A stretch of 64,000 nucleotides of DNA from Microlunatus kandeliicorticis (GTDB lineage Bacteria; Actinomycetota; Actinomycetes; Propionibacteriales; Propionibacteriaceae). The position numbers and the translations under genes were made by a program. Position 1 is the stretch's first letter. Each line of letters begins with the position of its first letter. A model generated the notes under the pieces. The model saw only the letters and a list, made by a program, of their open reading frames with translations. It made no database searches and was not told the origin of the DNA. Positions 25,227-53,774 of this stretch are shown piece by piece. The DNA lies in the NCBI RefSeq assembly GCF_014137855.1, contig NZ_JACGWT010000004.1:124001-188000 (forward strand), given 5' to 3'.

Positions 25227-25275
25227 GCGTCGGCGGGGTCGTCCGCGACCCCGGGCCGGGAGTTGCCCGGGCTCC

Positions 25276-33928: not shown

Positions 33929-35527
33929 TCAGGAAGGGGACGCGGGGCCCCGCTCGAGCACGGCGCGGACCGCGTCCAGGAAGGGTCGGTCGTCGCGCGG
34001 CCGGTCGCCGAGGTAGTGCCGGGTCAGGGCGGCCCGGGCGGCGCGCAACGGGTCGTCGGTCTCGGACGCGTCCGGTCGCAGCGCGGCCAGCCACGGCGGC
34101 GGGCGGCCGACCGCGTCCCCCGAGCCGCCCGCACCACCGAGGGCGGTCGGGTCGACCGAGTAGGCCGCCGCGGTGCTCGGGTAGCGCTCGGCCAGGGTCG
34201 CCGCGTCCACCCCGGCGGGCAGCACCACCGCGTACGGCTTCCGGGTCGCGAAGAAGTCGACCAGCATGCTGCCGACGTCGGTGATCATCGCGTCGGCGGC
34301 GTCGAAGCACTCCGCGGTGGTCCACGACCGGGTCGCGACGGCGGACGCGTGGCCGCGGCCGGCGTCGGCGGCCAGCACCGCGTCGACCTCGGCGATCAGC
34401 CGGCGGTCGCCGCCCTGCCAGCTGAACGGGTGCGGCCGGAAGACCACCGCGGCCCCCGCCGCGACGAGCAGCCGGGCCAGCGCCGGGCAGGCGGCCAGCG
34501 AGCCGAGCCGGGTCCGCGCGTTGTAGCCGCGCCAGGTGGGGGCCAGCAGCACCCGCCAGCCCCGGCCCGGAGGCCGCTCCCCCGCCCCGGCCAGCCCGGC
34601 CAGCTGCGGGCGCCCGACCTCGACGAACCGGTCGGGCGGGATCGACACCCGGGCCGCGGGGTACCGGTCGCGCGCGGCCGGTCCGGCGACGAACACCCGG
34701 TCGAACATCGCGTGCATCGGGTGCGCGGACAGCTCCTTGTCGGAGTCGCCGTGACCGAGGTAGACGTGGGTGAGCGCCCGGTAGTTGACGAACTGGACGT
34801 TCTCGCTGACCCCGTTGACGTAGAACGCGGCTCGCAGGCTCGGCACCGCCGCACGGTCACCGGCGAGGGCGGCGATCGCGTCGAGGTCGACCACCGCGGG
34901 CGCACAGACCACCGGTGCGGCGGTCGTCGTCCGGGCCCACTCGACGGCGGCCGGGTCGCGGACCATAACCACGTAGCGGCGGCCGAGCTTCTCCAGCTGG
35001 GGCAGCCACATCCGCAGCTGGTAGGAGGCGTCGTTGCGCCGGGCGGTGTAGACGACGAACTCCGGCGCGTAGGCCGTGAGCGCCCAGGTCAGCGCCGCCC
35101 GGCGGGCCGGCACGGCGCGGCGGGCCCGCAGATCGGTGAGCACCAGCAGCAGGCCGCCGAGCGCCGCCAGCACCGCCACCGCCACCGCCACCGGACCGAG
35201 GCCGAGCAGCAGGGTCACCGCGACCAGCAGCACGGCCAGCCAGCCGAGCACCCGCGCCGTAAGCGTCCCGATCCCGGGCCGTCCCGCGGCGAACCCCGGG
35301 AGCTGCACCGCGTTTGGCCGACGGGTCGGACGGAGCCGCCCGTGCACCGCGCTGGTCAGCACGATCATCATCGCGGCCGGCGCGCCGACGATCACCGCGG
35401 CGGCCCCCGGACCCGCGGGCTCGGCCGTGCCGAGCCGCGCCGCCAGCACCACCGCGAGCGCGGCCGTCAGCGCCGCGAGCAGCTCGGGCAGCAGGCCGCG
35501 CGCGACGGCGAGGGCCGCGCCCCTCAC
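33929..35527 (-). CDS. Membrane-anchored TagF-like polyol-phosphate transferase (single unit)
   Basis: A 532-residue protein: about four membrane helices (residues ~5-135), then a CDP-glycerol/CDP-ribitol phosphotransferase (TagF/TarL) domain. Domain marks are PEFVVYTARRNDASYQLRMWLPQLEKLGRR, HVYLGHGDSDKELS near residue 257 (the first catalytic His), VVFRPHPFS (second His) and SDAMI-like ADAMITDVGSMLVDF. It is a close paralogue of both halves of the upstream 1284-residue protein and overlaps it by 4 bp (GTGA), so it is a third copy in the same operon. Probably adds polyol-phosphate units to a lipid-linked wall polymer. Substrate, glycerol or ribitol, is not decidable. Confidence 0.85.
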   Translation of the reverse strand: MRGAALAVARGLLPELLAALTAALAVVLAARLGTAEPAGPGAAAVIVGAPAAMMIVLTSAVHGRLRPTRRPNAVQLPGFAAGRPGIGTLTARVLGWLAVLLVAVTLLLGLGPVAVAVAVLAALGGLLLVLTDLRARRAVPARRAALTWALTAYAPEFVVYTARRNDASYQLRMWLPQLEKLGRRYVVMVRDPAAVEWARTTTAAPVVCAPAVVDLDAIAALAGDRAAVPSLRAAFYVNGVSENVQFVNYRALTHVYLGHGDSDKELSAHPMHAMFDRVFVAGPAARDRYPAARVSIPPDRFVEVGRPQLAGLAGAGERPPGRGWRVLLAPTWRGYNARTRLGSLAACPALARLLVAAGAAVVFRPHPFSWQGGDRRLIAEVDAVLAADAGRGHASAVATRSWTTAECFDAADAMITDVGSMLVDFFATRKPYAVVLPAGVDAATLAERYPSTAAAYSVDPTALGGAGGSGDAVGRPPPWLAALRPDASETDDPLRAARAALTRHYLGDRPRDDRPFLDAVRAVLERGPASPS

Positions 35528-38500
35528 TGCTGACCTCCCTCGTCGGCCGCGCGGGACCGGTCGTGCGCGACCGTCCCCGCCGGCGACCGCGCGATCACCG
35601 ACCGGGCCGCGTCGAGGAACACCTCGGCGTAGGCCGGGCCGGTGCCGAGGTCGCCCAGGTAGTAGCTCCGCATCGCCTCCCGGTCGGCGGCCCGCGGGTC
35701 CGTCCCGACCGGGTGGTCGAGCAGCTCGTCGAGCACCGCCTCGAGGTCGGCCAGGTGCTCGTCGATCACCGCCCCGGCCGCCGCGGCCGGGGCCTCGGTG
35801 AGCAGCTGCTCGCGGGTGCGGCCCACCGCCACCACGGCGTACGGCTTGCCCGACTGCAGGTAGTCCGAGATCACCGCCGAGACGTCGGTGATCATCGCGT
35901 CGGACAGGTTGAAGCAGTCCTCGACCGACAGCGCGGTCTCGGCGTCGGAGCCGAACCGGTGCGGACGTCCGGTGGCGGCCCGGTCGGCGGTCAGCTGCTG
36001 CTCGATCGCGGTGATCATGGCCCGCGGCTCGTCGTAGCGCCGGTTGAACGGGTGCGGGCGGAAGACCACGGTCGCGCCGCGGGCCAGCAGCGCCTCGACG
36101 ATCCGCGCCCCCTGCGGCAGCGAGTAGAGCCGACTGTCGGCGTACGGGCCCTGCCAGGTCGGCGCGTACAGCACGACCGGCGGGCCGTCGTGCGGACGGC
36201 CGGGCTCGATCGCCGCGACCTGCGGTCGCCCGGTGATCACGAACTTCTCGGCCGGGATCCGGACGCCGTGCCGGGCGTACCGGTCGACCCCAGCCTGCCC
36301 GGCAGCGAAGATCAGGTCGTAGATCGCGTGCACCGGGTTGTAGCAGGCGGGCTTCTCGGAGTCACCGTGGTTGAGCCAGACGTGGGTGAGCTCGCGGCGC
36401 TCGACCAGGTGGGTGTTGCGGACCGCGTTGTTGACGTAGAACGCCGTGGTCAGCGACGGGACCATGATCGTCTCGACGCTGCCGAACGTCTCGCGCAGCA
36501 GCACCGGCACCTCCGGCGCGCCGGGTCCGCGGGCCGCGAGCATCCGGCCGAGCTCGTCGAGCACCGGTGCGGTCCGGCAGACGATCAGGTAGGGCTCTCC
36601 GATCCGGTCGAACCACGGCAGCCACATGCCGAGCTGGTAGCCGACGCCGACGCCGGAGCCGAAGTAGACGCAGAACCGCGGGCCCCGGTCGGCCAGCACG
36701 GCCGGCAACGCGGCCTCGGCGGCCACCGCCCGGCGGGCCCGTCGGGTGGCCGCCAGCGCCAGCAGGGCCGCGGCCACCGCCGCCGCCGCGGCCGGCAGCA
36801 GCACCACCGGGGTGAGCGCGGCCGGCATCACCGCGACCAGCAGTCCGGCCACCGCGAGCGCGGCCAGACCGACCAGGGGCGTGGTCAGCTGCCGGCGGCG
36901 GTCGATCTCGGGCACCCGGAGCTCGGGCAGCCCGAGCGCGCGGACGCCGGGCGCCCCGAGCAGAGCCACCGCCCCGGTCTCCACGGTCACGGCGGGCAGC
37001 AGCAGGACCAGCAGCAGTCCGGCGGTCACCACCGCCGCCGGGGCCCCGCTGCCGATCAGCGCGGCGGCGACCGTCAGGGCCAGCGCGGCCCGCGGCGCGT
37101 CGAGGACGGTCAGCCGGTCGGTCGGGCGGTCCGGGCCCCCCTCGGTCCGGTCGGCGAGCGCGGCGGCGAGCGGCGGCAGCAGACCGGAGGCGGTCAGGGC
37201 CACGGTCAGCACGGCGGCCACCACCGACACGGTCCAAGCGGCACCGGCCGCACCGCCGGTGCCGCCGGCGCCGTCGGCTGGACCGGCCAGCAGCCCGGCG
37301 AGCAGCCCGGCCACGAGCGCGGTGATCCCGGTCAGCAGCCCGGCCATGGTGCGGGCCAGCACCACCAGGTGACGCCGGACGGTGTCGCGGCCGAGCCGGA
37401 TCGACCCGTCGTCGGATTCGGCCACCTCCTGGCTGCGGTCACCGGGGGTGTCGAGCACGGCCAGCACCGCGTCGACGAAGGTCTGGGCGTACCGCGGGCC
37501 CGGCGCAGGCGCGCCGTCGGGTCCGGTGGCCGCCTCCCCCAGGTAGTCGGTCCGCAGCGCGGTCCGGGCCGGGGCCAGCGGGTCGGGGCCGAGCATCGCG
37601 CCGAGGGCCGCGCCCAGCTGTTCCAGACCGGCGTCCACCCGGTAGGCGGCGCGGGCGATCGGGTAGGCCGCCACGAACGGGTCGACCGGCTGCTGCGGGT
37701 CAGCGCCGGGGTCGACCCCGGGCGGCCCGCCGTGGTGATCGGGGGCGACCTCGGTCAGCGTCCGCGGGGCGATCATCGCGAACGGCTTGCCCGAGAACAG
37801 GTAGTCCGACACCACGCTCGAGACGTCGGAGACCATCGCGTCGGAGACGTTCATGCAGTCGAGCGCGGTCCGCTCGGTCTCGGCCGCTGCCCCCCACAGG
37901 TGGGCGCGGCCGGTGCGGTCGGCGTCGGCGGCCAGCAGCCGGTGGATCCGGGCGACGGTCGCGGCGTCCTCGGCGAAGTCGTAGCTGAACGGGTGCGGCC
38001 GGAAGACCACCGTCGCGCCGCGGGCCAGCAGCGCCTCGACGACCGCCTCACCCCGGTCGAGCGAGGACAGCGCCGTCTCGCTGACGTGCCCGCGCCAGGT
38101 CGGCGCGTAGAGCACCACCGGGACCAGCAGCCCGGCGTCCTCCGGTCCGGGGGCCGGACGGCGCGGCGGCTCCACCGCCTCGACCTGCGGTCGGCCCACC
38201 ACCCGTAACTTGTCCGGGTCGATCCGGACCCCGTGCTCGGCGTAGCGCCGGATCGCCGCCGGCCCGGCGGCGAAGACCAGGTCGAACATCGCGTGCGTCG
38301 GGTTGTACGACGGGGGCTTGTCGGAGTCACCGTGGCCAAGGTAGACGTGCCGCAGGTGCCGATAGCGGGTCAGCGCCCCGTTCCCGGAGGACGCGTTGAC
38401 GTAGAACGCCGCCCGCAGCGACGGGACCAGGGCGGCCTCGAGGTCGGCGGTGGTCCGGCAGCACACCACCGGGACGCCTTCGAGGGCCGGCAGCGCGGCC

Positions 38501-39378
38501 AGCGCCTCGGCCGGGAGGGCGTCGCGGGTGATGACCGCGAACCGCCGACCGGTGCGGCGCAGATAGGGCAGCCACATCGTCACCTGGTAGGAGGCGTCGT
38601 CGGGCCGGGCGGTGAACACCACGAACTCAGGCGCCCAGGCGGCCAGCGCCGCCGGCGTCCGGCGGAGCGCGACCGCACCGGCCCGGCGGCGGGCGCGGGC
38701 CTGCAGCACCACCAGCACCGCCGGGGACTCGGCCACCACCGCGAGCACCAGCCAGCTCCAGCCCGGAGCGCTCGCGAGGGCCAGCAGGGCCCCCAGCACG
38801 GTCGCGGTGGCCGAGGCGAGCCCGACGAACGGCACCAGCCTGCTGGCCGGCGGCGGTCCGTCGACCCCCGGCAGTCCATGGACGAACGGGACCGGCAGCC
38901 GCAGCAGCCGCAGCACGAACGACTCCGCGGCGATCGCCGCGGTCAGCACCAGCGCGGCCAGACCGGCCCAGGCCAGGATGCTGATGGCGTCGGTCGGGGC
39001 GTCGGTCGGGGCGGTGCCGGCGTCCACCGCCCAGCCGCAGAGCACCACCAGCACGGTGGCGCTGCGCAGCAGCGTGCCCCGGGCCAGCGGCGACACCCCG
39101 AGCGGGTCGGTGCCCGATCCGCGGCGGACCTCGGCCCGCCAGCGCAGCACCAGGGTGACCAGCACGACGACGGCGACGGCGGTCAGCACCACCAGCGCCG
39201 CGCGGCCCGGGAGCCCCGCGGCCGCGGTGCCGCGACCGGACCGTGCCGCACCGAGCACCAGCGCCGCGACCAGCGCGAGCAGCGCCGCCACCAGCAGGTC
39301 GAGACCGAGGTCGCGGACGGCCGCCGGACGTGCGGCCGCCGACCCCGGGAGACGGGCGGGCTCGGCACGACTGGGCAC
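35524..39378 (-). CDS. Giant tandem-duplicated membrane TagF-like transferase
   Basis: A 1284-residue protein built from two copies of the membrane-plus-transferase unit. Helices occupy ~20-240 and ~640-860; transferase domains follow at ~250-620 and ~870-1270. Each has the PxFVVF/CVYF-start, HGDSDK/HGDSEK (near residues 347 and 1003), VVFRPHPF (near 461 and 1108) and SDAM(V/I)(S/T)DVS-x-V-x-SDYL-x-SGKP(F/Y)A. Both sets of catalytic His are intact, so both halves may be active. Classical TagF has one soluble domain with WHGTP; here HGDSD/EK replaces it. GTG start, TAGGGT 6 nt upstream. The gene is co-transcribed with the 532-residue paralogue. Confidence 0.85.
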   Translation of the reverse strand: MPSRAEPARLPGSAAARPAAVRDLGLDLLVAALLALVAALVLGAARSGRGTAAAGLPGRAALVVLTAVAVVVLVTLVLRWRAEVRRGSGTDPLGVSPLARGTLLRSATVLVVLCGWAVDAGTAPTDAPTDAISILAWAGLAALVLTAAIAAESFVLRLLRLPVPFVHGLPGVDGPPPASRLVPFVGLASATATVLGALLALASAPGWSWLVLAVVAESPAVLVVLQARARRRAGAVALRRTPAALAAWAPEFVVFTARPDDASYQVTMWLPYLRRTGRRFAVITRDALPAEALAALPALEGVPVVCCRTTADLEAALVPSLRAAFYVNASSGNGALTRYRHLRHVYLGHGDSDKPPSYNPTHAMFDLVFAAGPAAIRRYAEHGVRIDPDKLRVVGRPQVEAVEPPRRPAPGPEDAGLLVPVVLYAPTWRGHVSETALSSLDRGEAVVEALLARGATVVFRPHPFSYDFAEDAATVARIHRLLAADADRTGRAHLWGAAAETERTALDCMNVSDAMVSDVSSVVSDYLFSGKPFAMIAPRTLTEVAPDHHGGPPGVDPGADPQQPVDPFVAAYPIARAAYRVDAGLEQLGAALGAMLGPDPLAPARTALRTDYLGEAATGPDGAPAPGPRYAQTFVDAVLAVLDTPGDRSQEVAESDDGSIRLGRDTVRRHLVVLARTMAGLLTGITALVAGLLAGLLAGPADGAGGTGGAAGAAWTVSVVAAVLTVALTASGLLPPLAAALADRTEGGPDRPTDRLTVLDAPRAALALTVAAALIGSGAPAAVVTAGLLLVLLLPAVTVETGAVALLGAPGVRALGLPELRVPEIDRRRQLTTPLVGLAALAVAGLLVAVMPAALTPVVLLPAAAAAVAAALLALAATRRARRAVAAEAALPAVLADRGPRFCVYFGSGVGVGYQLGMWLPWFDRIGEPYLIVCRTAPVLDELGRMLAARGPGAPEVPVLLRETFGSVETIMVPSLTTAFYVNNAVRNTHLVERRELTHVWLNHGDSEKPACYNPVHAIYDLIFAAGQAGVDRYARHGVRIPAEKFVITGRPQVAAIEPGRPHDGPPVVLYAPTWQGPYADSRLYSLPQGARIVEALLARGATVVFRPHPFNRRYDEPRAMITAIEQQLTADRAATGRPHRFGSDAETALSVEDCFNLSDAMITDVSAVISDYLQSGKPYAVVAVGRTREQLLTEAPAAAAGAVIDEHLADLEAVLDELLDHPVGTDPRAADREAMRSYYLGDLGTGPAYAEVFLDAARSVIARSPAGTVAHDRSRAADEGGQQ

Positions 39379-39384
39379 GGCGTG

Positions 39385-39390
39385 ACCCTA
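39385..39390 (-). promoter_or_regulatory. TANNNT -10 box of the tandem TagF-like gene
   Basis: TAGGGT on the minus strand, 6 nt before the GTG; it suggests the tandem-TagF operon has its own leaderless promoter, separate from the GT-C gene. Confidence 0.4.
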
Positions 39391-39418
39391 ACGGCCGGCC
39401 CGCGGGCGGGCGGTGATC

Positions 39419-39465
39419 CGGACCGGCCGCGTCACCCCGCGGGAGGATCTGCGCCGGCCGGTCCG
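39419..39465 (-). terminator. Hairpin after the GT-C gene
   Basis: CGGACCGGCCG (39419-39429) pairs with CGGCCGGTCCG (39455-39465), 11 bp with a 25-nt loop, starting 4 nt after the minus-strand GT-C stop. Same arm sequence as the hairpins at 33604 and 53811. Confidence 0.6.
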
Positions 39466-39469
39466 TCGC

Positions 39470-41050
39470 TCAGCGCGGCGACCGCACGACGTAGCGCCCG
39501 GACCGGACCACCACCGGCCAGTCCTCGATCACCTGCCAGCGGGCCGTGGAGAGGTCGCCGCCGCGGCGGAGCCGACTGACCACCGTGACCTCCCCGCTGC
39601 GCAGGTAGCCGAGGACGGCGTCGGCGAAGCGCTGGTTGTCGACCCGCGGGACGTCGCCGCCCGGGTCGAGGTCGTAGGCGTACCCGGTGACGTCGACGAC
39701 CGTCCGACAGCCGCGGTCGAGGTTGCGGCTGAACACGTCGGCCCGGATCAACAGTCCCGGGGTGTCCGCGGTGACGCAGCCGCGGGCCGACCGGAGCGCG
39801 TCCACCACCCGGGTGTCCGGACCGGGTGCGGCGTTCGTCCGCAGCGTGACCCCGGTCCAGCCCACCGCGCCGACCAGGACCAGCGCGAACACCGCGGTCG
39901 CCGCCCGGGCGACCGACCGGCGCCTCCGGCCCGTTCCCGGTCGCGGCCGGAGCACGCCGAGCGCCGCGCCCAGGCTCACGGCCAGCGGCACCCCGAGCAC
40001 CCCGGCGTAGTGCGGGTAGAAGGACGGGGCGGCGACCAGCAGCACCCCGAAGACGGCCGCGAGCACGGGAGCGACGCGATAGCGCGGGTCGCGCGCCGCC
40101 AGCACCAGCACCACCAGCGCGACCAGACCGGCCCCGCCGACCAGCCACCCGGCGGACGGCCCGTCGACCAGCCGGGCCGGCATCCCGAGCGAGACCCCGA
40201 GCCGTTCGAACGGTTGGCCGCGGTCGGCCGGGCGGCCCAGCTGGTCGCTGACCACCATCCGCCACATCGCGGCCGGCGCGGCCAGCAGGAACGGCAGGCC
40301 GCAGGCCGCCCCGCCGACGGCCGCCCCGAGCAGGCACCACGCGCCCGCGTGGCGTCCGGCGCCGGGATCGGCCCCGGCGCCGCGGGCCGCCCGGGCCCGG
40401 AGGACCAGCGAGCCGACCAGCACCAGCACGAAGAGGACGCCCCAGATCTTCACGGCGGTGCAGATCCCCAGACAGACCCCGGCGAGCAGCGCGGTGGCGG
40501 GTCCGGGCAGGCCCGCCCGGCGGTCGGCGGGACGGCCCACCCCGGCCAGCAGGAGGGCGGCGACCACGAAGACGTTGGCCAGTCCCTCGAGCATCGTCGT
40601 CCACTCCGAGACGACGGACGGCCAGTAGACGGCGTAGAAGGCGCCGCCGGCCAGGGCCGCCGGCGTGCCGGCGCGCCGGAGCAGCAGGCAGACCCCCGCG
40701 GCGATCAGGGCGCCGAGCAGCATCCAGGTCAGCCGGGCCCAGACGAACGCCTCGCGGTCGCCGACCGCCTGGGCGAGCCACCCGAACGGGCTGAGCGCGA
40801 GCACGATCCCCGGCGGCTGCAGGAACAGCAGGTCGCGGTAGGGCAGCCGACCCTGGACCAGGGCCAGCGCGGCACCGAAGTGGACGCCGTCGTCGTAGGC
40901 GTAGACGCCGGTCAGCCCGCCGGGGCCGCGGAGCACCGGGACGAGCCGCACCAGGAACGCCAGCACCCCGACGGCCACAGCCGACGCGGCCAGCGCGAGC
41001 CGGCGGGCGGGCGGGGCAGCGGGGCTCACGTCCGGCCGGGTGCTGTCCAC
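39470..41050 (-). CDS. GT-C membrane glycosyltransferase (GT39/GT87-like)
   Basis: A 526-residue polytopic protein with about eleven helices, a first extracytoplasmic loop with YAYDDGVHFGAALALVQGRLPYRDLLFLQPPG (the acidic pair typical of lipid-phosphosugar-dependent GT-C enzymes), and a C-terminal soluble domain of ~120 residues outside (DTRVVDALRSARGCVTADTPG). It probably transfers a sugar from polyprenyl phosphate to an extracytoplasmic acceptor. Position between the two TagF groups suggests decoration of the same wall polymer; the Ppm product mannosyl-phosphoprenol is one possible donor. GTG start with TAGGGT 6 nt upstream. Confidence 0.8.
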   Translation of the reverse strand: MDSTRPDVSPAAPPARRLALAASAVAVGVLAFLVRLVPVLRGPGGLTGVYAYDDGVHFGAALALVQGRLPYRDLLFLQPPGIVLALSPFGWLAQAVGDREAFVWARLTWMLLGALIAAGVCLLLRRAGTPAALAGGAFYAVYWPSVVSEWTTMLEGLANVFVVAALLLAGVGRPADRRAGLPGPATALLAGVCLGICTAVKIWGVLFVLVLVGSLVLRARAARGAGADPGAGRHAGAWCLLGAAVGGAACGLPFLLAAPAAMWRMVVSDQLGRPADRGQPFERLGVSLGMPARLVDGPSAGWLVGGAGLVALVVLVLAARDPRYRVAPVLAAVFGVLLVAAPSFYPHYAGVLGVPLAVSLGAALGVLRPRPGTGRRRRSVARAATAVFALVLVGAVGWTGVTLRTNAAPGPDTRVVDALRSARGCVTADTPGLLIRADVFSRNLDRGCRTVVDVTGYAYDLDPGGDVPRVDNQRFADAVLGYLRSGEVTVVSRLRRGGDLSTARWQVIEDWPVVVRSGRYVVRSPR

Positions 41051-41056
41051 CGCGGA

Positions 41057-41062
41057 ACCCTA
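41057..41062 (-). promoter_or_regulatory. TANNNT -10 box of the GT-C gene
   Basis: TAGGGT on the minus strand, 6 nt before the GTG at 41050. Confidence 0.4.
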
Positions 41063-41140
41063 AGCGGAGGACGCGGCCGAGTCCCAGGACCGTTCCACCG
41101 CCGGGGCTCAGCGAGCGTCCGAGGGCCGGGCCTGGCCACC

Positions 41141-41186
41141 GGCGGAGCCGGGACGAACGATGAGGCGGAGCCGGGACGAACCATGA
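41141..41186. repeat. 23-bp tandem duplication in a divergent promoter region
   Basis: Two adjacent 23-bp copies (41141-41163, 41164-41186), GGCGGAGCCGGGACGAAC then GATGA or CATGA, differ at one base. They lie between the divergent GT-C and GT2-TagF genes and could be a doubled regulator site. Confidence 0.65.
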
Positions 41187-41238
41187 GAGGAAGGCCAGCC
41201 CGGCTCGGCAGGCGCCGACCCGACCGCGCTCCCGTGGA

Positions 41239-41244
41239 TATGCT
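41239..41244 (+). promoter_or_regulatory. Candidate -10 of the first GT2-TagF gene
   Basis: TATGCT fits TANNNT and stands in a locally AT-richer stretch, ~75 nt before the TTG start, giving a leader of ~68 nt. No clear -35. Confidence 0.25.
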
Positions 41245-41318
41245 CGAACGGCTTTCCGGCGCTGCAGCGCCGACCTCCCCGGACCCGGGGCGACCGGATC
41301 GAGACGAAGGGACGGCGG

Positions 41319-45227: not shown

Positions 45228-45268
45228 GCGGGCGACTGAGCGGCCGACTGAGCCGCCGACTGAGCCGG
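45221..45268 (+). repeat. Four 12-bp tandem repeats spanning the stop codon
   Basis: CGACTGAGCGG(G/C) and CGACTGAGCCG(C/G) occur four times head to tail from 45221. The TGA of the first is the GT2-TagF stop; because the unit is 12 bp, every copy places another in-frame TGA. Confidence 0.7.
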
Positions 45269-45303
45269 CGGCCGGGCACCCGGTCCTCGGCGGACCGCTG
45301 CGT

Positions 45304-45309
45304 TAGGGT
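45304..45309 (+). promoter_or_regulatory. TANNNT -10 box of the leader ORF
   Basis: TAGGGT, 7 nt before the GTG at 45317; supports transcription starting at the leader ORF. Confidence 0.4.
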
Positions 45310-45316
45310 CGGGGCC

Positions 45317-45394
45317 GTGTTCCGCCCGATGGCCGCCGTACCCGTCCTGCCGGGGCGCCCCTCCGTCAGACCCGCCCGGACGGCGACGGCGTGA
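45317..45394 (+). CDS. Probable 25-codon leader ORF coupled to the second GT2-TagF gene
   Basis: A short ORF, beginning GTG-TTC-CGC (VFRPMAAVPVLPGRP) and ending ARTATA. Its TGA overlaps the GTG of the following 1299-residue gene by four bases (GTGA). The TAGGGT box 7 nt upstream implies that the mRNA begins at this GTG, and the large gene has no good ribosome site of its own, so it would be translated by coupling. It may have no product role beyond that. Seen directly: frame, overlap and box; expression is inferred. Confidence 0.45.
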   Translation: MFRPMAAVPVLPGRPSVRPARTATA

Positions 45395-48300
45395 CCTCGC
45401 TGGTCCGCACGCTCGTCGACCGGGCCCGCGAGTTCTCCGAGACCGGGGTCAACCGGCTGCCGCCGCGGGCGCAGTACGTGGTCCGCCGGGCCGGCCGGGC
45501 CGGGCTACCGCTGGCCCGCCGGGCCTTCGAGTCCCGGTTCGTCCAGCCGCTGGTCAGCATCGTCGTACCGGTCTACAACGTCGAGGCGTTCCTGCCCGAG
45601 TGCCTCGACAGCCTCGTCGGCCAGACCTACCGCCGGCTGCAGATCATCTGCGTCGACGACGGCTCACCGGACGACTCGATCGACGTGCTCCGCGCCTACG
45701 CGGGCCGGGACCCGCGGATCGAGATCATCCGGCAGGCGAACGCCGGGCTCGGCGCGGCCCGCAACGTCGGTGCGGCCAAGGCGCGCGGACGCTTCCTGAT
45801 GTTCGTCGACTCCGACGACGTGCTCGAGCTCGACGCGATCGCCAGCTACATGCGGGCGCTGCGCCGCAGCGGCTCGGACTTCGCGGTGTCGTCGTACCGG
45901 CGGATGAACGCCGGCGGCACCTGGGGCGCGGCGCCCTGGATCCGGGCTGCGCACCGCCGCACCAAGTACGCGACGACCCTGGCCGAGTCGCCGGACATCC
46001 TGGTCAACGCGGTCGCCTGGTCCAAGTGCTACCGCCGCGACTTCTGGAACCGTCACCACTTCCGCTTCCCGGAGGGCGTGCTCTACGAGGACCAGGCGGT
46101 CTCGGCCCGGGCCTACGCGCTGGCCGACCACTTCGACCTGCTGGCCAAGGTGACGGTCAACTGGCGGATCCGGCACGACGGATCCTCGATCACCCAGCAG
46201 CGGGTCGCGATCGACGACCTGCGGGCCCGGCTCGACGCCGCCTTCAACTCGCTCGCCGAGCTGACCCGGGCCGGAGCCACCCTCGGCCACGACGTCCGGC
46301 TGGCCCAGCTGCTCGGCAACGACTTCCCGCTGTCGATCAAGTCGGCCCAGCACGCCGACGACGAGTTCTGGGCGGTGCTGACCGACGGGTTGCGCCGACT
46401 GGTCGCGCAGGCCAACCCGCAGGTCTGGGCGCAGGTCCCGGCCCAGCACCGGCTGGCCATCCGGCTGGTCACCGAGGGCGAGCGCGAGGCGGCGATCGAC
46501 TTCGTCGGGCTCGGCCACGACAACCCGAAGAACGTCCCCACCCTGGTCCGCGACGGCCGCGCGTTCGTCCAGTTCGACGCCCGCGAGGCGCTCGGTCTGG
46601 CCTGGGACGACCCGCTGCTCGAGCTCACCGAGACCCAGCTCGGGCAGATCACCGGCATCACCGGGGTGCGGTGGCTGGAGGACGGCCGGCTCGAGGTGCG
46701 CGGTTGGTCCTACGTCGACAACGTCAGCGCCGCCGCACCCGACCCGCTCGACCCGGCCGACCAGCCGGGCGACGGTGCCGCACCCACCGTCACCCAGACG
46801 GCGGTGCTGGTGCCGGTCGGGCCCACCCACAAGGAACTGGGCCGCCCGTCGGTCGAGCTCCCGGCCGACGTGACGCCGGACCCGGCGGTCACCGTCGCCA
46901 CCCGGCACCGCTACGCGGACTACGAGAACTGCTGCTTCACCCTGACCGTGGACGTCGCGGCCCTGCCGGGGTCGACCGCCGGGGTCGGCGAGGCGGCGCG
47001 GACCGCGGTGGACCGCTGGCGCCTCGACCTGCGCACCGAGCTGGCCGGTTTCGTCCGCGAGGGGACGCTGCGTGGTCTGCAGACCCCCGGCGGGAGCCGG
47101 CTGCTCCCGGGGACCTTCCTGCCGGACGGTCGCCGCGCCGAGCTGAGCTTCACCAACCGCAACGGGCTGGAGGTCCGGGTCGAGCCGACGCTGGCCACGC
47201 TGGTGTCCGCCGTGCTGACCGACCGCCGGCTCGAGCTGGCGGTGCGCGGCGCCGACGGGTTCGTCCCGCGTGAGGTTGAGCTGGGCCGGTCGGCCCGCGA
47301 GGCGCCGGCCGTCCGGGTGCCGGTCCGGCTCGAGGACGGTGCCGCCCGGGTCACGGTCACGGTGCCCGACCCCGAGGCGCCCGGGCGCGCTGACCGGCGG
47401 GCGGCCGGACCGGTCGACCCGGGTGAGACCGCGGACGCCGCGGTCGAGGTCCCCGAGGTCCGGCGGGCCGGCCCGGTGCTCTGGACGGTGTGGGTGGTCG
47501 GGCTGGACGGGCGCCGCACCGCACTCGCCGTCCCCGACCCGACGGTGCTTCCCGACCTCGGTGCGTCCGGCACCCGGCTCCGGCTGGGCGTCGACCGCGA
47601 CCTGGTGGTGGTCGACGAGCCCCGCACGGTGCTGGTCGAGGAGCTCGCGGTGGTCGTCCCGGCGCCGGTCGGGACGCCCGGAGAGGTCGAGGGGGCCGGC
47701 GCGCCGGGCACCACCGTGGTCCGGCTGTCCGGGGTGGTCACCGGCGGCGCGGGCGCGGTCGAGCTGCGGCTCGCCGCTCCGTACGCGGCGACGACGGCCG
47801 TGGTCCGGCCCGGACCGGGTGGCCGCTTCGAGGCCGAGCTGCCGCTGGCCGCCGATCCGTGGCTGACCGGCGTCCGCCCGCTCCCGGTCGGCGACTACCG
47901 GCTCGCGGCACGGGCCGTCGACCCGGCGCCCGAGTCGTCGCCAATTCGGGCGGCCGGGGTGAGCCCGGCCGATCCCGACGACGCCGACTCGGCCTACGTG
48001 GTCGAGCTGGCCTCGACCGCCCAGTCCCGGCTGCCGGTCGACGTCACCGGACCGGACGTCCAGGGGCGGCTCCAGGCCGCGGCGCCGCTCGGCCTGCGGC
48101 TCCGGCTGGTGCTGCCGCAGACCGTCGACGAGGCGGGTGCGCGGCCGCAGCAGCGGCTGCAGAACCGGTTGGCGGCACGGCTCCCCAGCCCCGAGTTCGA
48201 GCGCGGGGCGGTGCTGTTCCGGTCGTACTTCGGGGAGACCTGCAGCTGCAACCCGCTGGCCGTGCACCGCGAGCTGCGCCGTCGCGGCACCGGCCACACC

Positions 48301-49290
48301 CTCTACTGGGCGGTCAAGGACCGGTCGGTCGCCGTCCCCGAGGGCGGCATCCCGGTGATCCACGAGAGCGCCGAGTGGTACCGGCTGCTGCACGACGCCG
48401 AGTTCTACATGGACAACATGCACCAGGCGATCTACCACCGGAAGCCCGCGCACCAGGTGCAGATCCAGACCTTCCACGGCTACCCGTTCAAGCAGATGGG
48501 GCAGTCGCACTGGGCCTGGCAGCACCGCGACGTCGCGCACATCCGCTCCTACCTCGAGCGGGCCGCCGACTGGGACTACCTGGTCTCCCCCGCCACCTAC
48601 GGCACCGAGCCGCTGGTCCGCGAGTTCGGCTTCCCGAACGAGGCGCTCGAGATCGGTTACCCGCGCAACGACGTGCTGCAGAGCCCGGAGGCCGGCGCGA
48701 TCCGCGACGACGTCCGGCGTCGGCTCGGGATCCGGCCCGACCAGCAGGTGGTGCTCTACGGCCCGACCTTCCGCGACCACCTGGCGCAGAACGACGTCCG
48801 GGCGCCGATGGTCGACTTCCTCGACACCCGGCGGCTGGCCGCCGAGCTCGGACCCGACTGGGTGATCCTGGTCCGCGGGCACGCCTTCAACGCCCGGGTG
48901 GCCAGTCGGGTCGGGTCGCGCGGCACGGTGCTCGACGTGACCGACTACCCCGACATCAACGACCTCTGCCTGGCCTCGGACTGCGCGATCCTCGACTACT
49001 CCTCGCTACGGTTCGACTACAGCCTGACCGGCAAGCCGATGCTGTTCATGGTGCCGGACCTGAAGCTGTGGACCGAGAGCGCGCGGGGCAGCCTGTTCGA
49101 CTACGCGCCGACCGCGCCCGGACCGATGCTGGTCAGCACGGCCGAGGTGGCCGCCGCGCTGGCCGACCTGGACGGCGTCCGGAGCGAGTACGCCGACGCC
49201 TACGCGCGGTTCCGTACGACCTACACCGACCTCGACGACGGCCACGCCGCCGAACGGCTGGTCGACCGGGTCTTCCTCCGGGACCGCTGA
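45391..49290 (+). CDS. Bifunctional GT2 glycosyltransferase / TagF-type polyol-phosphate polymerase (copy 2)
   Basis: A 1299-residue paralogue of the preceding gene. GT2 domain at ~50-290 (LVSIVVPVYNVEAFLPECL, CVDDGSPDDS, FVDSDDVLELD), beta-rich linkers at ~410-900, and TagF/TarL domain at ~930-1295: FRSYFGETCSCNPLAVHREL, QTFHGYPFK near 1026, IGYPRNDVL, LVRGHAFNARV near 1160, and DYSSLRFDYSLTGKP. It lacks the long Pro-rich leader of copy 1. Two such enzymes in series may add alternating or sequential units (sugar plus polyol phosphate). GTG start, coupled to the leader ORF. Confidence 0.88.
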   Translation: MTSLVRTLVDRAREFSETGVNRLPPRAQYVVRRAGRAGLPLARRAFESRFVQPLVSIVVPVYNVEAFLPECLDSLVGQTYRRLQIICVDDGSPDDSIDVLRAYAGRDPRIEIIRQANAGLGAARNVGAAKARGRFLMFVDSDDVLELDAIASYMRALRRSGSDFAVSSYRRMNAGGTWGAAPWIRAAHRRTKYATTLAESPDILVNAVAWSKCYRRDFWNRHHFRFPEGVLYEDQAVSARAYALADHFDLLAKVTVNWRIRHDGSSITQQRVAIDDLRARLDAAFNSLAELTRAGATLGHDVRLAQLLGNDFPLSIKSAQHADDEFWAVLTDGLRRLVAQANPQVWAQVPAQHRLAIRLVTEGEREAAIDFVGLGHDNPKNVPTLVRDGRAFVQFDAREALGLAWDDPLLELTETQLGQITGITGVRWLEDGRLEVRGWSYVDNVSAAAPDPLDPADQPGDGAAPTVTQTAVLVPVGPTHKELGRPSVELPADVTPDPAVTVATRHRYADYENCCFTLTVDVAALPGSTAGVGEAARTAVDRWRLDLRTELAGFVREGTLRGLQTPGGSRLLPGTFLPDGRRAELSFTNRNGLEVRVEPTLATLVSAVLTDRRLELAVRGADGFVPREVELGRSAREAPAVRVPVRLEDGAARVTVTVPDPEAPGRADRRAAGPVDPGETADAAVEVPEVRRAGPVLWTVWVVGLDGRRTALAVPDPTVLPDLGASGTRLRLGVDRDLVVVDEPRTVLVEELAVVVPAPVGTPGEVEGAGAPGTTVVRLSGVVTGGAGAVELRLAAPYAATTAVVRPGPGGRFEAELPLAADPWLTGVRPLPVGDYRLAARAVDPAPESSPIRAAGVSPADPDDADSAYVVELASTAQSRLPVDVTGPDVQGRLQAAAPLGLRLRLVLPQTVDEAGARPQQRLQNRLAARLPSPEFERGAVLFRSYFGETCSCNPLAVHRELRRRGTGHTLYWAVKDRSVAVPEGGIPVIHESAEWYRLLHDAEFYMDNMHQAIYHRKPAHQVQIQTFHGYPFKQMGQSHWAWQHRDVAHIRSYLERAADWDYLVSPATYGTEPLVREFGFPNEALEIGYPRNDVLQSPEAGAIRDDVRRRLGIRPDQQVVLYGPTFRDHLAQNDVRAPMVDFLDTRRLAAELGPDWVILVRGHAFNARVASRVGSRGTVLDVTDYPDINDLCLASDCAILDYSSLRFDYSLTGKPMLFMVPDLKLWTESARGSLFDYAPTAPGPMLVSTAEVAAALADLDGVRSEYADAYARFRTTYTDLDDGHAAERLVDRVFLRDR

Positions 49291-49299
49291 GCCCGCGAG

Positions 49300-49580
49300 G
49301 AACGTGCGCTGAGCTTGTCGAAGCGCTCCTGGGTAACAACGTGCGCTGAGCTCGCCGAAGCGCGCGCTCCTGCCCTTCGACAGGCTCAGGGCGCGGTGGG
49401 TGTGGTGCACTCAGGGCACCCTGGTGCGGAACGTGCGCTGAGCTTGTCGAAGCGCGCTCCTGGGTAACAACGTGCGCTGAGCTTGTCGAAGCGCGTGCTC
49501 CTGCCCTTCGACAGGCTCAGGGTGCGGTGTGTCCGTGCGCTGAGCTCGTCGAAGCGCCCTCGCCCTTCGACTCAGGGCAC
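49300..49580. repeat. CTTCGACAGGCTCAG repeat cluster with an internal ~100-bp duplication
   Basis: The gap 49291-49586 between convergent TagF genes holds about eight copies in both orientations (GCTGAGCTTGTCGAAGCG and CCTTCGACAGGCTCAGGG). A block of ~100 bp starting GAACGTGCGCTGAGCTTG at 49300 recurs from 49429 with a few changes, each including CTCCTGGGTAACAACGTG. Opposed copies can form hairpins. No gene is present. Confidence 0.8.
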
Positions 49581-49586
49581 CAAGGA

Positions 49587-52190
49587 TCAGTCGGCGAGCA
49601 GCAGGTCGACGGCCCGGGCGGAGGCGCCGCCGTCGTCCCAGGGGTTGAAGTCGGCCACCCACCGGGCGTAGGCCTCGGCGTGCTCGGGCGGGACGCCACC
49701 GGCGGCCCGGCGGATCTCCTCGACCACCGCGTCGGTGCTGGTCACCAGCGGACCGGGTGCGCGGTCGGCCAGATCGAAGTAGACCCCGCGGTCGCGTCCG
49801 GCGTAGGCCTCGAGGTCGGGGACGAAGAAGACCATCGGCCGGCGGGTCACGCTGTAGTCGAACATCACCGAGGAGTAGTCGGTGACCAGCACGTCGGCCA
49901 ACCGCAGCAGGTCCGACAGCTCGGGATAGGTCGTCACGTCGACCACCCGGTCGGCCCGCACGTCGCGCCCGGCGGCCACCGTGTTCGCGTGTCCGCGGAC
50001 CAGCACCCGGTGCCCGCCGCCCAGACCGCGGACCAGCCAGTCGAGGTCGAGACCCGTGATGGCGTCGTCGCCGGTCTCGCGCCAGGTGGGCATGAACAGC
50101 ACCACCGGCTCCGCCGGCGCGAGCCCGAGCCGCGACCGGAGCTCGCGGTCCTCGTCCTTGGTGAGCGGCCGGGTCAGCGCGTCGTTGCGGGGATAGCCGA
50201 TCTCGGCGACGGTCCCCTCGTAGAGGTAGGCCCGGCGGAACACCTCGGTGCTGTGCGGGTTCTGCGAGATCAACCAGCTCCACTGCGCGGTCTGGTCGGC
50301 CAGCGCCCGCCGGCGCTGGTCCGTGTCCGCGAACCCGATCCGGTCGGTGCCGAGCCGCTTGAGCGGGGTGCCGTGCCAGGTCTGCAGCACCCGTTGGCCG
50401 TCGCGGCGGAGGAACTGCCCGTCGGGGAACGCGTTGGTCACGAACCACCGAGCGCGGCTGCGGAGCTCGTAGAACTCGCGACTGCGGTCGAGCACCGGCA
50501 CCGCCCCGTCGGGGACGGGCACCGAGTGTTCGGCCACCACCCAGTACTCGGTCAGGTCGGGCCGGCGACGGACCAGCTCGTGCCGGATCGCCGCCGGGTT
50601 GTCGCCCACCGAGCGGCCGTCGAAGCTGGCGAACAGCACCGCGTCGAGCAGCAGCCGGCTCTCGGTCCGGCTGGCTCTGCTCAGCTCGATCGCCCGGAAC
50701 CGGCCGGCCTCGCCGACGGGTCGGGTCGGGCTGATCCGGAACGCCAGGGCGTCCTGCGCCGTCCGCTCGGCGCGGACCCGGACCGACGGGCCGACCATCC
50801 AGTCGCCCAGCCGGCCGGCCAGCCGACGCGACAACCGGACGCCCTCCGGCTCTCGGCCGTGGTGGCTGACCTCCAGCTCCCAGCGCCCCGTCCCGGGCGG
50901 CAGCACCGGCCCGCCGAAACCGCTCGCGGCGCGCAGGGTGAAGGCCACGGTGAGCGCGCCGGCCGGACGGTCGCCCGGGGCGTCCTCGACGTCGACCCGC
51001 TCGGCGGTGATGGTCTGCCGCGGGCCGACCAGGCGGAACGCGTCCGCAGTCGGCACCGTCTTCCCGAGACCGCTCACCCGGACCAGCAACCGCTCGGCTG
51101 CTGCGTCCGCACCGTCGAGCCGGACGTCGGTGACCAGCGCGGCGCCCGTGCCGCGCTCGATCCGCAGCACCGCGTCGTCGCCGGTGTCGAGGCGGGTGGT
51201 CCCGGCGCCGGTGGTGGTCAGCAGCTCGGCGTTCCCGTCCGGCGACGCCCAACGGGCCACCCGGTGCCGGCCCAGCGCGTCGACCAGCTCGAGACGCCAG
51301 CGACTCGGCTCCGGCACCAGCCGGGCCGGGTCGACCAGCACCCGACCCCGGCGGTACCCCAGCCGGACGTGGTCGGCCCGGCCGTGTGGCTCGTCCTCGC
51401 GGACCGCCAGCGCGCGGACGGGCCGGAACCCGCCTGCGGTCTGGACGTGCACCACCACCGGTCCGTCGTCGGTGATCCGGTCGACCAGCACCGCCGGCCG
51501 TTCCACCCGCACCACGAAGCCCTCGCGTCCACCGGTCCGGACACTGACCACCCGGTCGCCGTGCCGCACCGGACTCACCAGTCCGGTCGAGGCGTACCGG
51601 TCCGCCCGGCCGAACGGCTCGGTCCGCTCCGGCTGCGGGCCCGAGCCCGCGGCGTCCGCGTCGGCGCGGGCGAGCAGCCCCACCTCGATCCGCCACTGGT
51701 GATCGGCCTCGGGGTCCGCGTCGGCCAGCGCGGCCGGGTCGACGACCGCGGTGAACGCCGTGCCCGACCGGTCCCGGTTGCGGTCGTCGTCGCTGGTGTT
51801 GACGTCCTCACGGGGGACCCGGGTGAGCGGGATCGGCACCGGCGCGGTCCCCTTCGGGCCGACCGCGACCAGCGCGGTCCCCGGCGGGTCGTCGGCACCG
51901 AGCCGGAACGCCCAGCCCTCGAGAGCCAGCCGGCCGTCGGGTCGGAGGACCAGAGAGTGCAGCCGGCTGGTCAGGGCCCGCCGGCCGGCCGGCGCCGGCG
52001 GGCGCCGGACCGCCGGCGGAGCGTGCGAGCCGCGGCGCAGCCCGGCGCGGCGCGCGAGCGCGCGGGCCACTCGGCGGGCCGGGGCCGGGGCGCGCGTCCA
52101 GCCGCGCCGGGCCAGACCCACGGCCCGGCGGGTCAGCGCCCCGACCGGGTCCGCTGCGGTCGCACGACCCGACTTCCTCACCTCCGTCAC
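49587..52190 (-). CDS. TagF/TarL-type polyol-phosphate transferase with beta-rich N-terminus
   Basis: An 867-residue protein. Residues ~1-75 are basic (a likely membrane-surface anchor), ~80-480 are beta-rich segments similar in style to the linkers of the two GT2-TagF proteins, and ~500-860 form a TagF/TarL domain of classical type: LQTWHGTPLKRLG near residue 603, IGYPRNDAL, VLVRGHANT near 730 and VTDYSSVMFDYSVTRRPM. Lacking a GT2 domain, it probably primes or extends a poly(glycerol- or ribitol-phosphate) chain. It is divergent from the cytidylyltransferase gene (99 nt between starts). GTG start, TAACCT 7 nt upstream. Confidence 0.88.
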   Translation of the reverse strand: MTEVRKSGRATAADPVGALTRRAVGLARRGWTRAPAPARRVARALARRAGLRRGSHAPPAVRRPPAPAGRRALTSRLHSLVLRPDGRLALEGWAFRLGADDPPGTALVAVGPKGTAPVPIPLTRVPREDVNTSDDDRNRDRSGTAFTAVVDPAALADADPEADHQWRIEVGLLARADADAAGSGPQPERTEPFGRADRYASTGLVSPVRHGDRVVSVRTGGREGFVVRVERPAVLVDRITDDGPVVVHVQTAGGFRPVRALAVREDEPHGRADHVRLGYRRGRVLVDPARLVPEPSRWRLELVDALGRHRVARWASPDGNAELLTTTGAGTTRLDTGDDAVLRIERGTGAALVTDVRLDGADAAAERLLVRVSGLGKTVPTADAFRLVGPRQTITAERVDVEDAPGDRPAGALTVAFTLRAASGFGGPVLPPGTGRWELEVSHHGREPEGVRLSRRLAGRLGDWMVGPSVRVRAERTAQDALAFRISPTRPVGEAGRFRAIELSRASRTESRLLLDAVLFASFDGRSVGDNPAAIRHELVRRRPDLTEYWVVAEHSVPVPDGAVPVLDRSREFYELRSRARWFVTNAFPDGQFLRRDGQRVLQTWHGTPLKRLGTDRIGFADTDQRRRALADQTAQWSWLISQNPHSTEVFRRAYLYEGTVAEIGYPRNDALTRPLTKDEDRELRSRLGLAPAEPVVLFMPTWRETGDDAITGLDLDWLVRGLGGGHRVLVRGHANTVAAGRDVRADRVVDVTTYPELSDLLRLADVLVTDYSSVMFDYSVTRRPMVFFVPDLEAYAGRDRGVYFDLADRAPGPLVTSTDAVVEEIRRAAGGVPPEHAEAYARWVADFNPWDDGGASARAVDLLLAD

Positions 52191-52197
52191 CCGCGTG

Positions 52198-52203
52198 AGG
52201 TTA
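52198..52203 (-). promoter_or_regulatory. TANNNT -10 box of the 867-residue TagF gene
   Basis: TAACCT on the minus strand, 7 nt before the GTG at 52190. Confidence 0.4.
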
Positions 52204-52277
52204 ATGGGTGACCGGGCCCACGGTCAGGACGACCACGCGGGCCGCGCGGCGCCGCAGCCCGGGCCGGGCGCCGACGC

Positions 52278-52283
52278 TAGGCT
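52278..52283 (+). promoter_or_regulatory. TANNNT -10 box of the cytidylyltransferase-SDR gene
   Basis: TAGGCT, 6 nt before the ATG at 52290; the two divergent -10 boxes are ~75 bp apart. Confidence 0.4.
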
Positions 52284-52289
52284 CGCCGG

Positions 52290-53774
52290 ATGAGCAGTTC
52301 GCAGGACACCGACCCGACCACGCCCCGGCTGCGCAACGTCGCGGTGGTGCTGGCCGGTGGCACCGGCACCCGGGTCGGGCTGGACATCCCCAAGCAGCTG
52401 ATCAAGATCGCCGGCAAGCCGATCATCGAGCACACCCTGGCCGCGCTGCACGCCTCGGCGCTGATCGACGAGATCGTGATCATGATGACGCCGGGTCACC
52501 TCGACCCGGTCCGGTCGATCGTGCGCACCGGGGGCTTCACCAAGGTGAGCCGGATCCTCGAGGGGGCCGGCACCCGCAACGACACCACCGCGGCGGCGCT
52601 GGCCGCGATCGCCGAGGGGCTCGGTCCCGACGAGGACTGCAACGTGGTGCTCCACGACGCGGTCCGGCCGCTGGTCTCGCAGACGATCATCGCCGCGAAC
52701 GTCGAGGCGCTGCAGAGCTACGCCGCCGTCGACACCGCGATCCCCTCGGCCGACACCGTCATCCAGGTCGACCAGCCGGCCGGGAGCGCTCCGGGGGACG
52801 GCGCGATCGACGCCCGGTTGACCGACGTGCTGGCCCGGCCGCTGCTGCGCCGCGGACAGACCCCGCAGTCGTTCCGGCTCTCGGTGATCCGGGCCGCCTA
52901 CGCCAAGGCCGCCCAGGACCCCTCGTTCACCGCCACCGACGACTGCACCGTGGTGCTGCGCTATCTGCCCGAGGTCCCGATCGCGGTGGTCGCCGGACAC
53001 GAGCGCAACATGAAGGTCACCGAGCCGATCGACGTCTACATCGCCGACAAGCTCTTCCAGCTCACCTCCGCCGACCAGCCGGACACGCTGACCGACGCCC
53101 AGTACGCCGAGGCGCTCGCGGGACGGACGATGGTCGTCTTCGGTGGCTCGTACGGGATCGGCGGCGACATCGCCGCCCTGGCCCGGAGCCACGGCGCCGC
53201 CGTGTTCACCTTCTCGCGCTCGGCCACCGACACCCACGTGGAGAAGCGGGCCGACGTCGCCGCGGCCGCCCGCAGCGTGCTCGACCAGACCGGCCGGGTC
53301 GACTTCGTGGTCAACACCGCCGGGGTGCTGCCGATCAGCGCGCTGGCCGAGACCAGCGAGGAGACGATCTACAACGCCACGGAGATCAACTATCTCGGCC
53401 CGATCTTCATCGGCCAGGAGTTCTTCCCGCACCTCGCGGCCACCGGCGGCTCGCTGCTCTACTTCACCTCCTCCTCCTACACCCGCGGACGGTCCGGCTA
53501 CTCGCTCTACTCCTCGGCCAAGGCGGCGGTGGTCAACCTGACCCAGGCGCTGGCCGACGAGTGGGCGGGCAGCGGGGTGCGGGTCAACTGCGTCAACCCC
53601 GAGCGGACCGCCACCCCGATGCGGGTGCGCGCCTTCGGCGACGAGCCGGCGGGCACGCTGCTGAGCTCGACCGAGGTGGCCCGCCGCTCGCTCGACGTGC
53701 TGCTCTCGGCCCAGACCGGGCACGTGATCGACATCCGACGCGACTCCGGCCCGGCCGCGCTCACCGGGGGGTGA
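52290..53774 (+). CDS. Bifunctional CDP-ribitol synthase (cytidylyltransferase + SDR, Bcs1/Acs1 type)
   Basis: A 494-residue fusion. Residues ~15-245 are an IspD/TarI-type cytidylyltransferase (VVLAGGTGTRVGLDIPKQLIKI, HDAVRPLVS, RGQTPQSF, TDDCTVV). Residues ~265-490 are an SDR with GGSYGIGG in the nucleotide loop and YSLYSSAKAA as YxxxK. The same order is found in Haemophilus Acs1/Bcs1, which reduces ribulose-5-phosphate to ribitol-5-phosphate and activates it with CTP. It would therefore supply CDP-ribitol to the neighbouring TagF/TarL-like polymerases. ATG start with TAGGCT 6 nt upstream. Confidence 0.87.
   Translation: MSSSQDTDPTTPRLRNVAVVLAGGTGTRVGLDIPKQLIKIAGKPIIEHTLAALHASALIDEIVIMMTPGHLDPVRSIVRTGGFTKVSRILEGAGTRNDTTAAALAAIAEGLGPDEDCNVVLHDAVRPLVSQTIIAANVEALQSYAAVDTAIPSADTVIQVDQPAGSAPGDGAIDARLTDVLARPLLRRGQTPQSFRLSVIRAAYAKAAQDPSFTATDDCTVVLRYLPEVPIAVVAGHERNMKVTEPIDVYIADKLFQLTSADQPDTLTDAQYAEALAGRTMVVFGGSYGIGGDIAALARSHGAAVFTFSRSATDTHVEKRADVAAAARSVLDQTGRVDFVVNTAGVLPISALAETSEETIYNATEINYLGPIFIGQEFFPHLAATGGSLLYFTSSSYTRGRSGYSLYSSAKAAVVNLTQALADEWAGSGVRVNCVNPERTATPMRVRAFGDEPAGTLLSSTEVARRSLDVLLSAQTGHVIDIRRDSGPAALTGG

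Follow-up and report, generated by a model that had tools for sequence, protein, structure and literature searches.

How does one locus make use of six modules that resemble the teichoic acid polymerases TagF and TarL? Such polymerases are known mainly from Bacillus and Staphylococcus enzymes without membrane helices, and neither TagF nor TarL is known to have any. The question is raised by a 64,000-nucleotide stretch of Microlunatus kandeliicorticis DNA, termed the window here (bases 124001–188000 of contig 4 in the 4.30 Mb genome; Propionibacteriaceae), in which an original prediction placed six TagF/TarL-like modules in five proteins. Feature coordinates count from the start of the window. 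Coding frames were picked by codon-position GC and family matches, which gave seven genes, P0001 to P0007, in 33929–53774 (Table 1). Both the number and the coordinates of the predicted modules proved right: the entire genome has exactly six matches to Glyphos_transf (PF04464), all inside the window in five proteins and all above the curated cut-off of 22.1 bits. With its PF04464 modules and the domain make-up of P0007, the locus looks like the polyol-phosphate wall-polymer locus that had been proposed. It probably builds a teichoic-acid-type wall polymer, and one family of modules, class B, would act in this process as membrane-embedded ribitol-phosphate transferases. A literature search on membrane teichoic acid polymerases found nothing.

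Two families of TagF-like modules

The six modules had been merged into one group, but they form two families: TagF/TarF-like class A without membrane helices, in P0004, P0005 and P0006, and membrane-embedded class B, once in P0001 and twice in P0002. In the whole-genome scan, the three class A matches to PF04464 are full length (277–290 bits) and the three class B matches are partial (26–39 bits). Mutual identity is 38–55% in class A and 37–43% in class B; comparison of one class with the other by sequence gave short, marginal matches only. Profile–profile alignment with hhalign joined the two classes (probability 96.6, E 6.8e-10) and paired His259 and His366 of P0001 with His606 and His734 of class A, which align with TagF His444 and His584. 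The catalytic role of these TagF residues was inferred in part from PDB mutant entries, the entry titled H548A corresponding to residue 584 by counting along the TagF chain. Both histidines are retained in all six window modules, none being lost on alignment, and are invariant in 63/63 class B rows (alignment A2) and 12/12 class A rows. The proposal that some modules are dead was rejected because every row keeps both residues. The aspartate of the TagF D-Y-S-S motif is also conserved in the 63 class B rows, where V or I comes next. PF04464 is the only Pfam family that these rows match, all 63 at E ≤0.001.

Class A aligns along its length with TagF (P0005 versus 3l7i, E 1.2e-62; P0006 versus 3l7i, E 7.9e-53). 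These modules score higher with the TarF than with the TarL model, which, as a guess, might allow a glycerol-phosphate role. Compared with TagF (3l7i–3l7m) and Staphylococcus aureus TarL (8va1), the window proteins share PF04464, both histidines and, in the P0001 model, a predicted GT-B fold, but class B differs in that helices precede every module, the HG segment is shorter and a tandem form exists, whereas class A differs in its fusion to GT2 or to an extra N-terminal region.

The membrane association of class B was examined by structure prediction and hydropathy. An AlphaFold model of P0001, folded with alignment A2 (mean pLDDT 90.0, pTM 0.88), has predicted membrane-length helices at residues 2–33, 40–65, 88–107 and 111–137 and an extra helix at 139–153, followed by a two-domain region that was read as GT-B via fold search. 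Hydropathy placed membrane stretches at the P0001 N-terminus and ahead of each P0002 module, and found none in P0004–P0007. Foldseek ranked TagF 3l7l first in the PDB for the P0001 model (E 2.7e-7). Sequence searches of the PDB returned nothing up to E 1 with P0002 as single query and marginal matches only with the class B profile, TarL 8va1 being the top match (E 0.0038). A plasmid search with P0001 gave one place in Nonomuraea, at 34.5% identity and without an annotated feature.

Gene neighborhood of class B

The domain make-up of P0007, an IspD-like cytidylyltransferase fused to an SDR reductase, is that of a cytidine diphosphate (CDP)-ribitol synthase. Its best PDB match is ribitol-5-phosphate cytidylyltransferase 1 (6xhp, E 7e-29). 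With the IspD model TIGR00453 it scores 148.2 bits, below the cut-off of 181.3, and the notion that it is the genome's own IspD was rejected, a separate and stronger IspD (203.5 bits) lying at C3:687490. Going by its description in the accessible text of PMC10299916, Haemophilus Bcs1 likewise joins a cytidylyltransferase and a reductase in one chain.

The IspD-SDR fusion recurs beside class B in other genomes. A first sample comprised 78 class B loci of named genomes, with flanks of up to 10 kb per side, from the best 80 of 167 confirmed stretches; several are cut by contig ends, some share one genome, and the gene caller labelled class B in 75/78. The fusion is present in the flanks of 60 loci and directly adjoins class B in 50. 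By taxon, it occurs in 41/47 Micromonospora, 5/7 Arthrobacter, 5/5 Brevibacterium, 3/3 Mumia and 2/2 Verrucosispora loci, in Rarobacter and Sanguibacter, and in 1/5 Microlunatus and 1/4 loci of Propionibacteriaceae metagenome-assembled genomes. Genes resembling both TagG and TagH are found in 48/78 loci, and the order TagG-TagH-fusion-class B in 38, 36 of these being from Micromonospora. When 16 genomes were searched with P0007, the fusion was recovered in seven, comprising six Microlunatus at 78–80% identity and one genome (G050) at 52%, and was absent from 5/5 family members that had been selected for the lack of a PF04464 match.

The neighborhood bears on the alternative that P0004–P0006 are the real polymerases of a sugar/polyol-phosphate heteropolymer in the manner of Haemophilus Bcs3, with class B only priming or decorating it. 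The class A modules are full length and close to TagF, two of them are fused to GT2, and a Haemophilus protein with a TagF-like and a sugar-transfer domain makes a heteropolymer, as described in the accessible text of PMC10299916. However, class A is present in the flanks of only 9/78 class B loci compared to 60/78 for the fusion. Two Microlunatus genomes, G067 and G071, have no PF04464 match above 41 bits, although both assemblies exceed 400 contigs; G067 (480 contigs) has only weak matches of class B type (≤37.6 bits) and keeps the fusion at 78% identity. We consider this alternative somewhat unlikely, and prefer class B as the ribitol-phosphate transferases.

A polysaccharide pyruvyl transferase-like protein lies near class B in 24/78 loci (for example, L032 13859–15109, L025 12954–14363, L024 14763–16118, and, elsewhere, L177 10753–12261), PF04230 having been tested in L032 only; none was seen in the window locus, in P0001–P0007.

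Age and spread of class B

A tree was built from 90 class B modules (midpoint root; P0001 flagged for unusual letter make-up). In it, the N-terminal modules of tandem proteins form one group of 19 (support 100/99), which also includes one unlabelled row, and the C-terminal modules form another, also of 19 (100/100). Each group spans Propionibacteriaceae, Micrococcaceae, Brevibacteriaceae, Nocardioidaceae, Rarobacteraceae and Sanguibacteraceae. P0001 clusters with single-module proteins from Propionibacteriaceae and Arthrobacter (nine rows, 100/99), and the tandem protein of genome G023 is of separate origin. On this tree the three class B types are old, with their catalytic residues kept.

The number of PF04464 matches ranges from 2 to 11 in 20 Microlunatus genomes, with a median of seven, and from 3 to 18 in a set of 14 to which class B loci had led; the idea that six modules are an exceptional count was thus discarded. 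The range within the genus would suit a scheme in which recent duplication produced six redundant modules with no separate roles, but that scheme is very improbable: the N- and C-terminal modules belong to separate, well-supported clades common to several families, P0001 represents another type, and both histidines persist in every row. Class B is present in 20/20 Microlunatus genomes. A draw across the phylum yielded class B matches in at least 21/296 genomes, own genome included, a lower bound as at most four candidates were scored per genome. Confinement of class B to Microlunatus was rejected on the basis of the matches in other genera and in this draw.

Two arrangements of the modules also were observed. 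Four class B modules stand in a row at G018 C1:221128–227678 and G061 C1:2237837–2244411, apparently as two adjoining tandem proteins. The genome of Mumia xiangluensis (G078), which lies behind locus L032, has 18 PF04464 matches with equal-score sets on contigs C1 and C8, either true duplications or repeats inside the assembly.

Limits of the link and a parallel in Streptomyces

A number of observations weigh against class B as ribitol-phosphate transferases. Class A has a segment following the HG motif that is missing from class B. In the Foldseek search, a UDP-GlcNAc 2-epimerase takes third place (E 4.7e-7) and TarL does not appear until rank 34, so the P0001 fold alone shows GT-B only. No assay of any class B enzyme was found in the literature searched. 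P0007 scores 142.4 bits with the NCBIfam ribitol-5-phosphate cytidylyltransferase model NF001183, below the cut-off of 166; the CDP-ribitol supply fusion of the original prediction is upheld in domain make-up, and P0007 is called CDP-ribitol-synthase-like, a putative member. The gene linkage is guilt by association, with Micromonospora supplying 47/78 loci. Class A is also present in 14/14 genomes reached from class B loci. Four genomes (G005, G023, G029 and G045) have PF04464 matches yet no fusion, G023 having weak matches only and a class B gene ~8 kb from an SDR/IspD pair. Among Microlunatus genomes, a long distance separates the fusion from class B in G057 and G064, and the two lie on different contigs in G060.

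A second, more divergent sample gave a mixed picture. Twenty stretches from other genomes were fetched by place and 19 contain class B: the fusion is present in seven (L166–L169, L173, L178 and L183) and an unfused IspD/SDR pair in two (L177 and L184), and, as a further point on the contrary side, neither is present in ten (L170, L171, L172, L174, L175, L176, L179, L180, L181 and L185). Six of these ten (L170, L171, L172, L174, L176 and L180) sit in a divergent class B clade, L181 has a fusion ~27 kb away (L182), and the genome of L185, a second class B copy, has the fusion at its other copy. Given this mixture, only part of the class B family, including the part to which the window proteins belong, is linked to a CDP-polyol synthase.

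The ten stretches, the weak PF04464 scores and a fold search in which TagF is not distinguishable from other GT-B enzymes would all agree with class B being GT-B enzymes that use another donor, such as a nucleotide sugar, and are merely housed in teichoic acid loci. This is improbable considering that both TagF histidines and the aspartate are kept in 63/63 class B rows, that PF04464 is the sole Pfam match, and that class B adjoins the fusion in 50/78 loci. Ribitol-phosphate transfer remains the preferred function.

The divergent clade comprises 17 rows (100/100), the six stretches named above together with Brevibacterium rows; members among the fetched stretches lack a CDP-polyol synthase nearby, and the clade perhaps is a branch with another job. 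One of them, L171 (G169 C1:692001–712000), is a compact cluster of a TagD-like gene, class B, two class A genes and TagG/TagH-like genes without IspD-SDR, possibly a glycerol-phosphate version.

The phylum draw included nine genomes of 7–10 Mb from one genus with class B matches, of which four were fetched; the order L21-L27-Obg-fusion-class B is found in 4/4 of these Streptomyces-like stretches, L21, L27 and Obg being named by eye. In Streptomyces griseus, SGR_4953 (L21) and SGR_4954 (L27) are the anchors, SGR_4956 (TarIJ) and SGR_4957 (TagF) are wall teichoic acid proteins, and 1,5-linked ribitol phosphate is seen in the wall by nuclear magnetic resonance, according to the accessible text of PMC13274773. 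Therefore, by order alone, class B is placed as S. griseus TagF SGR_4957, beside the IspD-SDR fusion as in the four genomes. SGR_4957, which is cited here as a name, differs from P0002 in having a single module. Furthermore, the Streptomyces-like class B genes fall in a clade separate from the window proteins (branches 100/98 to 100/100), a further count against the preferred function, and S. griseus wall chemistry is therefore a distant parallel. The description of the Microlunatus polymer as heteropolymeric and undescribed was not sustained: a search pairing Microlunatus with teichoic acid gave nothing on topic by title, and the nearest described walls, those of S. griseus and Streptomyces antibioticus, contain teichoic acids of ribitol phosphate that are linked to other glycans in the accessible text of PMC13274773.

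Proposed pathway

From the computed domains, conserved residues, predicted P0001 fold, gene linkage and tree, we infer substrates, a polymer, a topology and a division of labor. P0007 would reduce a pentulose 5-phosphate and activate it with cytidine triphosphate. The CDP-polyol formed would most likely be CDP-ribitol, made as set out for Haemophilus Bcs1 in the accessible text of PMC10299916. The helices of P0001 and P0002 would keep a cytoplasmic GT-B domain close to the membrane surface, and there it may transfer polyol phosphate from the CDP-polyol to a lipid-linked acceptor or growing chain via the two histidines. The N- and C-terminal modules of P0002 and the P0001 module are retained as distinct active-site types, probably with successive jobs. 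P0004 and P0005 (GT2 plus TagF-like module) and P0006 may add sugar and further polyol-phosphate units. Bcs3, compared by its description in the accessible text of PMC10299916, similarly joins a TagF-like domain and a sugar transferase, but transfers ribose from phosphoribosyl pyrophosphate, has a phosphatase domain and belongs with Gram-negative capsule export. Export, lipid start and wall ligation would proceed via genes elsewhere in the genome.

A more far-reaching version is offered tentatively, as a possibility with the odds against it: P0002 and P0001 may be a conserved membrane unit of three active sites for the first polyol phosphate, the transition and extension, replacing TarB/TarF/TarL of Firmicutes, and many Actinomycetota may rely on class B as their main ribitol-phosphate polymerase system.

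Gene content of the locus and other wall genes

Table 1. Genes and TagF-like modules of the wall-polymer locus, in window coordinates.
Feature	Coordinates	Strand	Description
P0001	33929..35527	-	Class B, one module: N-terminal region with four predicted membrane-length helices, then TagF-like GT-B domain; PF04464, 25.8 bits
P0002	35524..39378	-	Class B tandem: two membrane-bundle plus TagF-like modules (hydropathy); PF04464, 70.2 bits in two stretches
P0002 N-terminal TagF-like module	37429..38673	-	Residues 236-650
P0002 C-terminal TagF-like module	35527..36768	-	Residues 871-1284
P0003	39470..41050	-	Multi-pass GT-C-type protein (hydropathy); Pfam GT87, 28.2 bits (cut-off 25)
P0004	41319..45227	+	GT2, long linker and class A TagF-like module; PF00535, 128.1 bits; PF04464, 279.8 bits
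P0005	45391..49290	+	GT2, long linker and class A TagF-like module; PF00535, 113.5 bits; PF04464, 272.7 bits
P0006	49587..52190	-	N-terminal region and class A TagF-like module; PF04464, 286.7 bits
P0007	52290..53774	+	IspD-like cytidylyltransferase and SDR reductase fusion; PF01128, 136.8 bits; PF00106, 103.8 bits

The end of P0002 and the start of P0001 overlap by 4 nt, and the real start of P0004 may lie 3′ of the listed TTG. P0003 accounts for the GT-C enzyme that had been predicted; no counterpart above 40 bits was found in the 78 related class B loci. A similar set in rearranged order (IspD-SDR, class A, GT2-class A, class B tandem, class B single) occurs in Microlunatus endophyticus (L018 1136–17706), followed by an apolipoprotein N-acyltransferase-like gene identified by eye, as at 30214–32049 of the window.

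Candidates for the remaining steps of wall teichoic acid synthesis lie elsewhere. TagGH, TagO and TagD were absent among the seven locus proteins by Pfam scan, and none was recognised by eye in 20 kb on each side or among the other window genes. The predicted lack of these genes thus holds for the window, but not as a telling absence, since candidates were detected in other parts of the genome. A candidate TagG/TagH-like ABC pair is located at C2:265.4–267.3 kb, its ATPase scoring 214 bits with the teichoic acid exporter model versus 209 bits with the galactan model, both below cut-off, and a candidate TagD-like protein is at C2:279319 (124.7 bits, below the cut-off of 165.4). There are three PF00953 proteins, with MraY and TagO types not told apart, one of which adjoins ATP-synthase-like genes. 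One WecG/TagA-family candidate (PF03808) lies at C1:315538 in a cluster that by eye is exopolysaccharide-like, and one LCP protein at C2:553426. These are unproven candidates that may serve the polymer of the window locus.

Separately, ~nine 28-bp units with the consensus CGGCGCTTCGACAGGCTCAGCGTGCGGT form a tandem array at 24990–25235 of the window. A similar translated pattern, FDRLSA, is present elsewhere in the genome (L130 4835–5809), so the repeat may belong to a dispersed family.

Implications for actinobacterial walls

The locus is real, coherent and of known type; what is new is the transferase family that is embedded in the membrane and partly tandem. If the assignment is true, Actinomycetota including Micromonospora, Brevibacterium, Arthrobacter, Mumia, Microlunatus and Streptomyces-like organisms would build ribitol-phosphate-type wall polymers with integral-membrane enzymes, some of which would carry two active sites per chain. 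It would also name a testable enzyme for the wall polymer to which other glycans attach in S. griseus, and class B would be a marker for predicting wall chemistry from genomes.

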